Shown here: in pieces, positions 29,808-51,539 of the stretch
How the letters are laid out: each line of letters opens with the position of its first letter
How positions within the stretch are numbered: position 1 is the first letter of the stretch
NCBI RefSeq assembly: GCF_000703085.1
Contig: NZ_JNLL01000001.1
Location: 806,001 to 870,000 of the forward strand
DNA: 64,000 nt
Direction of reading: 5' to 3'
Source of the DNA: Persephonella sp. KM09-Lau-8
GTDB lineage: Bacteria; Aquificota; Aquificia; Aquificales; Hydrogenothermaceae
The notes under the pieces: model-generated
The model's input: only the letters and a program-made list of their open reading frames with translations
Databases searched by the model: none
Told to the model about the DNA's origin: nothing
Program-made: the position numbers and the translations under genes

Positions 29808-29849
29808 TTTTTTCAAACAATGTTTTATAACAACCAAAGGAGGGTCGCC

Positions 29850-31034
29850 ATGAAAAAACTATCACTAAAAGCTTTAGTCCCAGCAGTTCTTCTTGCTTCA
29901 ACTATTACAACTGCACCAGCAAATGCTATTGCAAAGTTTAAAATCAATGATGAAAGCAACGTGTGGATCAGTCTGCTGCTTCAACTGAGGGGGGAATGGA
30001 TAGAAGATGGGCAGGTTGATAACTCAGGATGGAGAAGTGATTTTTACATTAGAAGAGCCAGAATTTTATTTGGTGGAACAATAAACAGATATGTTGATTT
30101 CTTTGTTGAAACAGATAATCCAAATATGGGAAAGGACAAACCTATAAAAGATGATGATGGGAATATAATTGGTTATAAATCAAACAATGACACAAAAACT
30201 TTTATACAGGATGCATGGATAAGACTTAAATTAGCAAAAGAATTTAATATCGTTATGGGTCAGATTTTACTTCCTTTTTCCCATAACAATGCAACAGGTG
30301 CTATAGCTCTTTTAGGCGTAGATTACAATCTTACAGTTGTAAAATTCCCATCTACAAGTCATTTTGTATGGAGAGATTACGGTGTTGAGGTCATGGGACT
30401 CGTTTCCTTACCTAAAGGAAGCTTAGATTACAGAGTTGGTCTATTTGATGGAGTTGAAACACTAAAAGGAGATAATGTGACTATAAATAAAGATGATAAC
30501 TACAGAATAACAGGAAGATTGCAATATAACCTGTTTGATGCTGAGGGTTTTTATTATAGGGGAACCTATTTAGGTAAGAAAAAAATCGTTTCTTTTGGTG
30601 CGGGATTCGATTATCAGAAAGATGCAGCAGCTGATGATTATGATGCACCTACAAAAGTAGATGATTATAAAGCATGGACTGTTGATATGTTCGTTGATTA
30701 TCCTTTAACAGGTGGAGATGTTGCCACATTCCAGATAGGCTATATTAATTATGATTATGGTAATACAGGAAATCCAAATGACGGAACCGCTGTATATGCA
30801 GAAGCAGGTTATTTGTTTAATAAACAGATCGGTTTTGGAAAAGTTGAACCGATAATCAGATATCAATCCTTTGATTCAGATTCTCCATCTGGTAAAGATG
30901 ATACAGGGCTTTATGTAGGACTTGCTTACTGGATAGATGGAATTAGGGCAAATATAAAAGCTGAATATGAGTTTGATGGAGGAGATGGGAAAGATCAGGA
31001 TATATTCACATTACAGGCACAAATACTATTTTAA
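29850..31034 (+). CDS. Outer-membrane porin (OprO/OprP-like)
   Basis: 394 aa from ATG 29850, which follows AGGAGGG; an upstream in-frame ATG at 29799 lies at the promoter and is rejected. The signal peptide ends at APANA (about residue 27). The mature part has the pattern of phosphate-selective porin O/P family barrels (SDFYIRRARILFGGTINRYVDFFVETD) and ends in Phe. It is the first gene before acs and the acetate permease, so it probably admits acetate or other small anions across the outer membrane. Confidence 0.85.
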   Translation: MKKLSLKALVPAVLLASTITTAPANAIAKFKINDESNVWISLLLQLRGEWIEDGQVDNSGWRSDFYIRRARILFGGTINRYVDFFVETDNPNMGKDKPIKDDDGNIIGYKSNNDTKTFIQDAWIRLKLAKEFNIVMGQILLPFSHNNATGAIALLGVDYNLTVVKFPSTSHFVWRDYGVEVMGLVSLPKGSLDYRVGLFDGVETLKGDNVTINKDDNYRITGRLQYNLFDAEGFYYRGTYLGKKKIVSFGAGFDYQKDAAADDYDAPTKVDDYKAWTVDMFVDYPLTGGDVATFQIGYINYDYGNTGNPNDGTAVYAEAGYLFNKQIGFGKVEPIIRYQSFDSDSPSGKDDTGLYVGLAYWIDGIRANIKAEYEFDGGDGKDQDIFTLQAQILF

Positions 31035-47207: not shown

Positions 47208-49808
47208 ATGTCAGAAAAGAAAGAAAACATCACCCCTATGCTTGCCCAGTATCACAGAATTAAAAATGAGTATCCTGATGCCCTTGTTTTATATAGATTA
47301 GGCGATTTTTATGAGATGTTCTATGAAGATGCATATATCGGAGCCAGAGATTTAAATATAGCTCTTACCAGAAAGAAGGTTGGAAAATCTGCAGATATTC
47401 CAATGTGTGGAATTCCCTATCATGCTGCAGACAGTTATATTAGTCGACTTGTTGCGAAGGGTCATAAAGTCGCAATATGTGAACAGCTTGAGGATGCTTC
47501 AAAAGCCAAAGGAATAGTCAAAAGGGATGTAATTAGAGTAATAACCCCAGGGACATACTTTGAAAACGAAAAGCTGAAATCCGCTCTTGTTTCAATACTC
47601 CCAGAAGGAAATAAATACGGAGTTTCATACATAAACCTTTCTACAGGTGAGTTTTTTGCAACAACAACAGACCTTGATGGCTTAATAGCATTTTTGGGAA
47701 AATTCCAGCCAAAAGAGATACTACTTCCTGAAAACACTGAAATACCGGAGATAAAGGAAAATTTCAGAAATATATTTGTATCCCATGTTCCCCAAGACTT
47801 TTTCTCTCAAGAAAAGCTAAAAAACCTTTTAGACTTTTTTAAAACAAGCCATTACTCATCATTTGGATTTTCAGACAAGGATATAACTGCCCTTTTATCA
47901 GCTGCCGCAGTTCTTGAGTATGTCAAAATTACCCAGAAGCAATTCTTACCTTTTATAAATCCTTTAAAGCAGTATCAGGGAGATATTTACATAAGACTTG
48001 ATTACTCAGCCCAGAAACATCTTGAACTTACAACAGCAAATGAAGGGAATGTCCCTCTCTTCAGGGTTATAGATAGAACCCTTACAGGAATGGGAAAAAG
48101 AAAATTAAAGTTTTTCCTGTTACATCCATTAAAAAACAAAAATCTGATACAACAAAGACTGGAATTTGTCTCTGAACTCTTTGAAAATTCGAATCTCAGG
48201 GAAAAAATAAGAGAAATACTTAATGAAATTTTTGATGTGGAAAGGCTTATCTCAAAAATATCCTCAAATACAATGACCCCTCGGGATATGGTTGCCCTCA
48301 GAACATCTTTAAAGCATATAAGGGAGCTTAAATCTCTACAAAATCAAATAAAGTCTGAATATGGAAAACAGCTATTTGAAAATATACAGGATTTCTCTTA
48401 TTTAATAGGTAAGCTGGAAAAATATCTTGAGGATAATCCACCAATACATCTGAAAGAAGGAGGATTAATCAAAAAGGGAGTTCATCCAGACCTTGACGAG
48501 CTTAAGGAAATCAAAGAAAAAGGAAATCAATGGGTAAAAGAGTATCAGGAAGAGCTTAGAGAAGAAACAGGTATCCAGAGTCTTAAAATAGGCTACAACA
48601 AGGTAATGGGCTATTATATAGAAGTAACAAAGCCTAACCTGAAATTCGTCCCCTCATACTTCAGAAGAAGACAGACCCTTTCAAATGCAGAAAGATTCAC
48701 AACAGAAAAACTCCAGAGATTTGAGGAAAAAATCCTGTCTGCAGATGAAAAGATAAAAGCCCTTGAGTATGAAATATTTATGCAAATCAGGGAAGAGGTT
48801 TCCCAAAACGCAGAAAAGATTGCAAAAACAGCCCAGAATGTTGGTTTTATAGATGCCATTCAATCCCTTGCCACAATATCTGTGGAAAAAGGCTGGACAA
48901 AGCCAGAAATAACAGAAGATTATGGGATATTTATTCAGGAGGGATATCATCCTGTAATAAAAGAGTTTGTGAATGATTTTGTTCCAAATGATTTAAAGAT
49001 GGATAAAAATTCCTTCTTCCATATAATCACAGGTCCCAATATGGCCGGTAAAAGCACATTTATAAGACAATCAGCAATAATACTAATTCTGGCACAGGCA
49101 GGCTCATTTGTCCCTGCCAAAAAGGCAAAAATCTCTATTGTTGATGGAATATTCACCAGAATAGGCTCCGGAGATGTGCTGTCAAAAGGACTTTCAACAT
49201 TTATGGTTGAGATGCTTGAGATGGCAAATATCCTGAATAATATAACCTCAAAAAGCTTTGTTGTTCTTGATGAGGTTGGAAGAGGAACCAGCACCTACGA
49301 TGGTCTTTCAATTGCATGGGCTATCTCAGAATATATAAGCCAGAAAATAAAGGCAAAAACATTATTTGCCACCCATTACCATGAACTAACCAAATTAGAA
49401 GAGGAGATAAAAGGGGTCAAAAACTACCACATGGAAATCTTAGAGCAAAAAGGGGATATAAAGTTTCTATTCAAAGTAAAAGAAGGCTTCACAAACAAAA
49501 GTTATGGTGTCCATGTGGCAAAACTTGCAGGAATAAAGGAAGAAATAATTAAAAGGGCTTATGAAATTCTGTATCATCTTGAGGAAGAGCAGGAGAAAAA
49601 AATAGATGAGACTATAATAAATCTATCCCAGAAAAAAGAGGAATATCTGCCGTTATTCAGGGAGTTGGAAGAAAAGGAACAAACTCCAGACCACATCCAG
49701 CAACTAATAAAAGAGATTGAAAGTATTGATATAGCCACAATGACACCTATAGATGCAATAGTCTTCCTAAATCAGCTAAAAACAAAGATAAAACAGTTTA
49801 AAAATTAA
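47208..49808 (+). CDS. mutS: DNA mismatch repair protein MutS
   Basis: MutS recognises mismatches. It is 866 aa, full MutS1 form. The N-terminal mismatch reader has YRLGDFYEMFYEDA (the F-x-E motif), core and clamp domains follow, and the ATPase has Walker A TGPNMAGKST (near residue 608), VDGIFTRIGSGD, LDEVGRGTSTYDG and FATHYHEL. A -GGGGAAAGGAATG- type ribosome site precedes it. The small RNA terminator lies just downstream on the other strand. Confidence 0.97.
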   Translation: MSEKKENITPMLAQYHRIKNEYPDALVLYRLGDFYEMFYEDAYIGARDLNIALTRKKVGKSADIPMCGIPYHAADSYISRLVAKGHKVAICEQLEDASKAKGIVKRDVIRVITPGTYFENEKLKSALVSILPEGNKYGVSYINLSTGEFFATTTDLDGLIAFLGKFQPKEILLPENTEIPEIKENFRNIFVSHVPQDFFSQEKLKNLLDFFKTSHYSSFGFSDKDITALLSAAAVLEYVKITQKQFLPFINPLKQYQGDIYIRLDYSAQKHLELTTANEGNVPLFRVIDRTLTGMGKRKLKFFLLHPLKNKNLIQQRLEFVSELFENSNLREKIREILNEIFDVERLISKISSNTMTPRDMVALRTSLKHIRELKSLQNQIKSEYGKQLFENIQDFSYLIGKLEKYLEDNPPIHLKEGGLIKKGVHPDLDELKEIKEKGNQWVKEYQEELREETGIQSLKIGYNKVMGYYIEVTKPNLKFVPSYFRRRQTLSNAERFTTEKLQRFEEKILSADEKIKALEYEIFMQIREEVSQNAEKIAKTAQNVGFIDAIQSLATISVEKGWTKPEITEDYGIFIQEGYHPVIKEFVNDFVPNDLKMDKNSFFHIITGPNMAGKSTFIRQSAIILILAQAGSFVPAKKAKISIVDGIFTRIGSGDVLSKGLSTFMVEMLEMANILNNITSKSFVVLDEVGRGTSTYDGLSIAWAISEYISQKIKAKTLFATHYHELTKLEEEIKGVKNYHMEILEQKGDIKFLFKVKEGFTNKSYGVHVAKLAGIKEEIIKRAYEILYHLEEEQEKKIDETIINLSQKKEEYLPLFRELEEKEQTPDHIQQLIKEIESIDIATMTPIDAIVFLNQLKTKIKQFKN

Positions 49809-49907
49809 AAAGGGCGGTATCTTTTGATACCGCCAGAAATAGGAGGTTAGGAGGGCCATGAGAGGAAACACAGCTTCAGGTGCTGCGTGTCCCACTAACC
49901 TGAGGGG
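49806..49907 (-). ncRNA. Candidate small RNA with CCUCC motifs
   Basis: About 100 nt, with its own promoter (-35 TTGATT at 49941-49936, 16-base spacer, -10 TATAAT at 49919-49914) and its own terminator (GGCGGTATC, AAAA loop, GATACCGCC, then CTTTTT; stem 49834-49813). Between them the RNA can close a 7-bp stem (AGGUUAG with CUAACCU) around an inner hairpin (CAC-AGC arms, loop ACCUGAA). The single-stranded part is C/U-rich and contains CCUCC twice, complementary to Shine-Dalgarno sequences. It matches no class I recognise; SRP RNA, 6S and tmRNA features are missing. Confidence 0.65.
49813..49834 (-). terminator. Terminator of the small RNA (may also end mutS mRNA)
   Basis: Perfect 9-bp stem with a 4-base loop. 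The T-run follows only on the minus strand, so it is oriented for the small RNA; in the mutS direction there is no T-run. Confidence 0.85.
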
Positions 49908-49913
49908 ATTTGT

Positions 49914-49941
49914 ATTATATGCAAAAAATGAAAAAAATCAA
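49914..49941 (-). promoter_or_regulatory. Promoter of the candidate small RNA
   Basis: TTGATT (49941-49936), 16 bases, perfect TATAAT (49919-49914) on the minus strand, starting 15 bases after the stop of the upstream hypothetical gene. Confidence 0.65.
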
Positions 49942-51036: not shown

Positions 51037-51110
51037 AAATCCTTCTAAAAATTTTTAGGAAATTTAGTATATAACAACATAAATCTGACCAAAGTTTGTG
51101 CAAATTAGTA

Positions 51111-51139
51111 TTGACAATATACCAAAAAAGGCACATACT
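51111..51139 (+). promoter_or_regulatory. Cold-shock gene promoter
   Basis: Consensus TTGACA (51111-51116), 17-base spacer, CATACT (51134-51139). It predicts a leader of about 105 nt. Confidence 0.7.
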
Positions 51140-51152
51140 TATTGCAGAAGAT

Positions 51153-51209
51153 GTTTAAAGTCTCTCAGGGGAATTCCCCTATCAGAGCGCGCTCCCAGAG
51201 CCTTTAAAC
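51153..51209 (+). promoter_or_regulatory. Branched 5' leader structure of the cold-shock gene
   Basis: An outer 8-bp stem (GTTTAAAG 51153-51160 with CTTTAAAC 51202-51209) encloses two perfect palindromes, AGGGGAATTCCCCT (51167-51180) and GAGCGCGCTC (51185-51194). Nearby CTCT and AGAG segments allow other pairings, so the leader could switch shape with temperature. It ends 41 bases before the ATG. Confidence 0.65.
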
Positions 51210-51250
51210 TCTTCAAAAAAGTTAAATTTTATTTTGGAGGATTTTTAGTA

Positions 51251-51460
51251 ATGCGTCACACAGGTACAGTTAAATGGTTCAACTCAAAGAAAGGGTACGG
51301 CTTCATCACAAGAGATGACGGCCAGGGAGATGTTTTCGTTCACTTCTCAGCTATTCAGGGCGAAGGATTCAAAACTCTGGAAGAAGGCCAGAAAGTAGAG
51401 TTTGACATTGTTCAGGAAGAAAAAGGCGAAAAAGCACAAAACGTTGTAGTCAGCGAATAA
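51251..51460 (+). CDS. csp: Cold-shock domain protein
   Basis: 69 aa nucleic-acid chaperone. The CSD has RNP1-like [12 protein letters not shown] and RNP2-like DVFVHFSAI. The ATG at 51251 follows GGAGG by 10 bases; the frame stays open upstream, but that part is the structured leader and is not coding. Monocistronic, with its own promoter, leader and terminator. Confidence 0.97.
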
Positions 51461-51476
51461 TCAATCTCTTCTCATA

Positions 51477-51502
51477 AAGGGGTGGAATTCCACCCCTTTT
51501 TT
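51477..51502 (+). terminator. Intrinsic terminator of the cold-shock gene
   Basis: AAGGGGTGG-AATT-CCACCCCTT followed by a T-run. Confidence 0.95.
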
Positions 51503-51539
51503 ATATTATCCTTAAAATCAAAAAATCTCAGGAAATCAG

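Follow-up and report, generated by a model that had tools for sequence, protein, structure and literature searches.

A conserved small RNA gene of Persephonella and two related genera with a region complementary to translation starts

Results

Comparison with related genomes makes it near-certain that the minus strand at positions 49806-49941 of the window (the whole stretch of 64,000 nucleotides analysed here) holds a real gene. Judged from sequence, its product is probably an Hfq-type trans-acting small RNA that blocks translation initiation on mRNAs encoding envelope proteins.

Promoter, terminator and fold of the locus

A promoter, TTGATT-16-TATAAT, lies at 49914-49941 (minus strand), and the predicted small RNA, of approximately 100-104 nt with its 5' end estimated from that promoter, spans 49806-49909 (minus strand) in a unit of promoter and terminator conserved in 16 genomes. 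The RNA ends in an intrinsic terminator at 49834-49806 (minus strand), GGCGGTATC-AAAA-GATACCGCC-CTTTTT, consisting of a perfect 9-bp stem (49834-49813), a 4-nt loop and a CUUUUU tail. The first-pass annotation had reported this promoter, the terminator with its T-run, the lack of a convincing open reading frame and a repeated CCUCC motif, and all four are borne out: the first two are present as described, no ORF of at least 40 aa occurs on either strand of 49806-49941, and CCUCC is found twice in the small RNA. The 7-bp closing stem and inner hairpin that it had also proposed both fold in this genome, AGGUUAG at 49901-49895 pairing with CUAACCU at 49850-49844 and 49888-49882 pairing with 49874-49868; the 5' arms of both lie in a variable 5' part (49882-49909, minus strand) whose sequence and structure differ between genera. 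The fold energy of the small RNA is -37.7 kcal/mol versus -22.0 kcal/mol for shuffled sequences (z = -5.3), part of which is contributed by the terminator. The promoter match by itself was not above chance (15 found against 11.3 expected in a 4-kb scan) and is placed above chance by the conservation of promoter and 3' half across three genera despite changing neighbours. The promoter string TTTTTGCATATA[AT]T had no second occurrence in the 464 kb sampled of its own genome.

Conservation and distribution

BLAST searches of relatives gave 75-100% identity to the locus region in congeners and, for the 3' half only, 90-93% identity in two other genera. Of the 41 family genomes, 16, from three genera including Persephonella, carry promoter and 3' half (49874-49806) together in a single copy, and public records carrying the small RNA are from Persephonella sp. 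and Aquificota MAGs. In the alignment the promoter core and T-rich spacer are retained (TTGAwwTTTTT..TTTTTGCATATAAT), as is a block running from GCTGTG to GGCGGT (GCUGUGUUUCCUCUCAUGGCCCUCCUAACCUCCUAUUUCUGGCGGU) that is nearly invariant among carriers, with the variable 5' part between them. The putative pairing region GCUGUGUUUCCUCUCAUGGCCCUCCUAACCUCCUAUUU (49837-49874, minus strand), the complement of a Shine-Dalgarno sequence, AUG and first codons, is near-invariant: of the 16 loci, L017 and L023 each differ by one change. A 25-nt core, CCTCTCATGGCCCTCCTAACCTCCT, has a single occurrence in each of the 16 genomes and is absent from the remaining family genomes of the 41 at up to 3 mismatches; the reversed core pattern, used as control, gave zero matches. 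The covariance search against related genomes that had been suggested at the outset separated carriers cleanly: across 136 phylum genomes intact copies scored 93-102 bits, one copy cut off by a contig end scored 53 bits, and everything else scored 30 bits or less. Distant covariance-model matches were rejected as homologues, being mostly strong terminators or antisense gene starts. No paralogues were found in the own genome, where short matches were rejected as T-rich promoter-like sequence. In a distant family (f5; L088/L089) a conserved stretch after smpB, TCTGTGTTCATCGCACTCATACTTC, is accompanied by a strong terminator, GAGCGGTTC-TTCG-GAACCGCTC; it carries no CCUCC and is probably unrelated.

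Conservation in relatives had been expected for the promoter, the stem and the CCUCC motifs, and this holds for the promoter and for the CCUCC-bearing 3' half; the closing stem is not conserved. AGGUUAG can pair with CUAACCU in most members of the genus, but L020 and L021 lack this stem, and L022 and L023 fold their 5' part in another way, with the closing stem rebuilt in a different form. What is conserved is thus the 3' half as a sequence rather than the closing stem, which by this comparison is lineage-specific, the C/U-rich unpaired stretch being the conserved part. Accessibility of the pairing region is partial in some members.

The terminator alignment has 98.9% of cells paired, with compensatory and G-U changes such as CCGCC to CCGUCC in the two other genera. 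On the plus strand these G-U pairs would turn into A-C mismatches, so that the changes make sense only on the minus strand, which fixes the strand. The plus strand does read AGGAGG...AGGAGGGCCATGAGAGGA, a Shine-Dalgarno sequence then ATG, and could be imagined to yield a GGA-rich functional transcript, such as a sponge of the CsrA type or one with a small ORF (AUG AGA GGA...). However, promoter and U-run sit on the minus strand, the terminator changes are G-U only on that strand and the frame of the plus-strand ORF is broken by indels in relatives, so that we regard this reading as extremely improbable.

Neighbouring genes

Upstream of the small RNA, the neighbour differs between carriers: it is a 101-aa gene, rluB, a gene of 107 or 134 aa, or a NUDIX gene in divergent orientation. 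The downstream gene, where readable, is convergent and encodes MutS, an epimerase or a Phenol_MetA_deg protein. Because the neighbours vary, the small RNA is neither a feature of mutS nor a simple 3' UTR. Its description as lying behind mutS is true of this genome, but the adjacency is incidental, since other genera have other neighbours. In most members of the genus the 101-aa gene lies on the same strand approximately 90 nt upstream, an arrangement expected if the RNA were the 3' UTR or terminator of that gene, or an mRNA leader, rather than a gene of its own. Against this, small RNA and promoter persist where rluB, the 107-aa or 134-aa gene or the divergent NUDIX gene is the upstream neighbour, two genomes (G017 and G024) have the 101-aa gene but not the small RNA, and the genes downstream are convergent; we consider such an origin very unlikely. 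The retention of promoter and terminator across three genera with changing neighbours instead upholds the earlier view of a free-standing gene, and a promoter and Rho-independent terminator of its own, independent of neighbours, are as expected of a base-pairing sRNA.

Predicted pairing with translation starts

The conserved block is more than an anti-Shine-Dalgarno sequence, being complementary to an entire translation start (AGGAGGUUAGGAGGGCCAUGAGAGGAAACACAGC): the reverse complement of the conserved half, AAAUAGGAGGUUAGGAGGGCCAUGAGAGGAAACACAGC, reads as Shine-Dalgarno, AUG and first codons. The conserved part includes CUCAUGG, the start-codon complement, which was missed in the first-pass annotation; its proposal of anti-Shine-Dalgarno motifs able to pair with ribosome sites gains support from the comparison, with the stretch now seen to span Shine-Dalgarno, start codon and first codons. 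In G012, a weak homology match proved to lie antisense to a genuine gene start, AAAAGGAGGAAGGAGGGCUAACAUGAGAGGAAAAACAGCC, that of a TonB-dependent receptor (Plug domain). No other non-self match of the conserved half is stronger in that genome, the predicted pairing being -53.8 kcal/mol over approximately 30 base pairs. The orthologue in the carrier G007 (92% identical) gave a predicted pairing of about -40 kcal/mol, versus -11 kcal/mol for the orthologues, 63% identical, of two non-carriers. No other evidence speaks as strongly for the conserved block reading translation starts as this receptor pairing in carriers.

As the conserved middle is complementary to a ribosome-binding site and start codon, the small RNA probably shuts off protein production, and a translation-blocking mechanism is probable. 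A trans-acting RNA of approximately 100 nt, made from a stand-alone gene (49941-49806, minus strand), would pair through the stretch GUUUCCUCUCAUGGCCCUCCUAACCUCC with mRNAs over Shine-Dalgarno, AUG and first codons, probably assisted by Hfq, and the paired mRNA start would be blocked for 30S binding. Its role would be to reduce the synthesis of envelope proteins in response to a stress or nutrient signal acting on the conserved promoter. Hfq assistance is made possible by the presence of two hfq genes above the Pfam cut-off in the genome, at G000:C1:62601-62789(+) (L168) and 1901517-1901696(-) (L169).

The near-invariant block exceeds 45 nt across genera, longer than most seeds. Since pairing alone does not usually keep so long a stretch unchanged, the RNA may have a protein-binding role. 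The small RNA might then act mainly as a sponge or scaffold, its complementarity to translation starts being incidental; that no copies were found in distant families also fits such a role. However, the block is without strong conserved structure, its invariant core is the complement of Shine-Dalgarno and AUG, and its best non-self match in one genome is a translation start. We judge a mainly protein-binding function distinctly unlikely and favour pairing with mRNAs: the region is conserved, in part unpaired and complementary to several mRNAs, as is characteristic of base-pairing sRNAs.

Candidate targets

Translation starts were scored as z values against 200 seeds in which all but two CCUCC motifs were shuffled (100 for the background set, 150 for the first ranking), and targets in the own genome were ranked from a 464-kb sample together with genome-wide pattern searches. 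The background of 38 orthologue families had a mean z of -0.30 (sd 0.75), with none at or below -2.18. The starts of yfdX (Pfam YfdX) had a mean z of -2.3 in 11 carriers versus -0.3 in 8 non-carriers; G003 and G023, incomplete genomes of carrier genera with yfdX starts at z +1.0 and -4.4, were excluded from this comparison. A TonB-dependent siderophore-type receptor (TIGR01783, above cut-off) averaged about -2.2 in carriers. In the window, a Porin_O_P gene (29850-31034) has the predicted target site GGAGGGTCGCCATGAA (29839-29854, plus strand) at its start, and its family was the best of the 38 background families, with a mean z of -2.04 in four genomes. At the start of a FadL-like outer-membrane protein the predicted pairing was -34.4 kcal/mol.

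A genome-wide search for GGAGG-N0-5-GCCATGAR found eight sites in the own genome besides the antisense of the small RNA, at the starts of the receptor, YfdX, the porin, the FadL-like protein, a small signal-peptide protein, a DUF2267 protein, FliA and ribonucleotide reductase, the last two being named from sequence and general sigma-70 domains rather than a specific family model. Such sites number on average 3.7 per carrier genome, excluding the RNA's own antisense site, versus 0.7 per non-carrier. The best conserved candidates in the own genome are thus the siderophore-type receptor, YfdX, the FadL-like protein and Porin_O_P. Immediately upstream of yfdX, a small gene that is possibly prefoldin-like has at its 3' end a conserved stretch complementary to the small RNA, GGCCUGAGAGGAAACAC (G000:C1:754837-754858, L099; orthologous places L111-L113), followed by a terminator-like hairpin; the yfdX locus may thus hold a second pairing site.

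An envelope regulon is suggestive only, owing to several features of these tests. A shuffled-seed test on orthologue-averaged energies did not separate proposed targets from control genes, and in it control-type starts, those of a prepilin gene and the neighbouring 101-aa gene, also reached about z -3 in carriers. Enrichment of signal peptides among the pattern sites was not significant against the AUGAR-start baseline (5/8 versus 36%, p = 0.12). The prepilin start, which had the top single-genome target score, was rejected as a target, its pairing being weak or variable in other carriers and non-carriers scoring alike. Carriers are related genomes with a G+C content unlike that of non-carriers, the ranking was sampled, and G003 and G023 were left out. 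Any start bearing a Shine-Dalgarno sequence pairs somewhat with CCUCC, and with most SD-AUG starts the pairing is stronger than that of shuffled seeds; these facts, and the presence of fliA, ribonucleotide reductase and DUF2267 among the pattern sites, would suit a general antagonist of translation starts, a global anti-SD decoy with no envelope preference. Against such a decoy, the very strong predicted pairing with one receptor is confined to carriers, and yfdX and the receptors surpass all 38 background families. We therefore consider a global decoy unlikely and retain envelope-protein mRNAs as the candidate targets.

Discussion

The first-pass annotation had recognised no known RNA class at this locus, and the Rfam scan gave nothing credible to alter that: no Rfam 15 family (FsrA, RsaE, LhrC, 6S, SRP and others) was found there at gathering threshold, and the best permissive matches, of 21.4 and 15.8 bits, are far under their cut-offs. 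On these comparisons the small RNA is a new family within a known kind, the trans-acting base-pairing sRNAs. Elsewhere in the window, 51083-51503 (plus strand) matched the Rfam cspA thermoregulator with 79 bits, against a cut-off of 78. The match overlies a gene for a cold-shock protein and may reflect coding similarity alone.

To our knowledge regulatory RNAs of Aquificota are almost unstudied. A 2014 survey of Aquificales ncRNAs, with experiments on Aquifex aeolicus, mentions Persephonella only once in its main text and, in those parts of the text that were searched, gives no description of the RNA reported here (PMC4227106). A conserved sRNA with outer-membrane candidate targets, in a genome with two hfq genes, offers an entry to post-transcriptional control in an early-branching thermophile and raises the question of whether control of envelope proteins by sRNAs has arisen more than once.

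In two further genera of the same family, g7 and g8 (L086, L087, L301-L306), eight genomes contain a conserved C/U-rich element, CCTCATGGCTTAACCTCCTCCCC (CCUCCUCAUGGCUUAACCUCCUCCCC; CCTCCTCATGGCTTAACCTCCTCCCC), with a terminator. On one side it directly follows the stop codon of an LTXXQ (Spy/CpxP-type) gene, and on the other it precedes a response-regulator gene, both flanks being Pfam-checked in one genome each. The element has CUCAUGGC and CCUCC in common with the window RNA, and no promoter of its own is visible. By its position after a Spy/CpxP-type gene the element recalls CpxQ of E. coli, which derives from the cpxP 3' UTR (PMC4817254), and it is possibly a CpxQ-like 3' UTR sRNA. We put forward tentatively, as a rather doubtful proposal, that the two RNAs are forms of one Aquificota envelope-control sRNA system, masking Shine-Dalgarno and start codon of outer-membrane mRNAs outside Proteobacteria. 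The window RNA itself resembles CpxQ in its envelope-related target set, and sRNAs controlling outer-membrane proteins generally in its candidate targets, but differs from CpxQ in having its own promoter rather than arising from an mRNA 3' UTR, its upstream genes changing or diverging.

Among other sRNAs, NfeR1 and CcsR carry CCUCCUCCC anti-SD motifs. The window RNA is like them in its repeated CCUCC anti-SD motifs and unlike them in being restricted to Aquificota, containing CUCAUGGCC and matching no Rfam family. NfeR1 (alpha-r14 family) and CcsR are sRNAs of Alphaproteobacteria (PMC10746234). In Firmicutes, C-rich stretches of FsrA and RsaE/RoxS target Shine-Dalgarno sequences (PMC4132741). 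The likeness to FsrA- and RsaE-type RNAs noted at the outset stands as regards motifs able to pair with Shine-Dalgarno sequences, but they are analogues and not relatives, belonging to another phylum and acting on iron and redox metabolism, whereas the window RNA has predicted envelope targets and no Rfam match. The LhrC sRNAs of Listeria monocytogenes have their own promoters and terminators, are multicopy and LisRK-controlled, bind Hfq and are linked to envelope stress, and their UCCC motifs pair with the Shine-Dalgarno region and block translation (PMC4132741). The window RNA is likewise C/U-rich, with its own promoter and terminator, predicted Shine-Dalgarno pairing and envelope candidates; it is unrelated to LhrC in sequence, is single copy and has a seed that includes the start-codon complement. 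By analogy, it would work most like LhrC, FsrA and RsaE, in which C/U-rich motifs mask the Shine-Dalgarno sequence.
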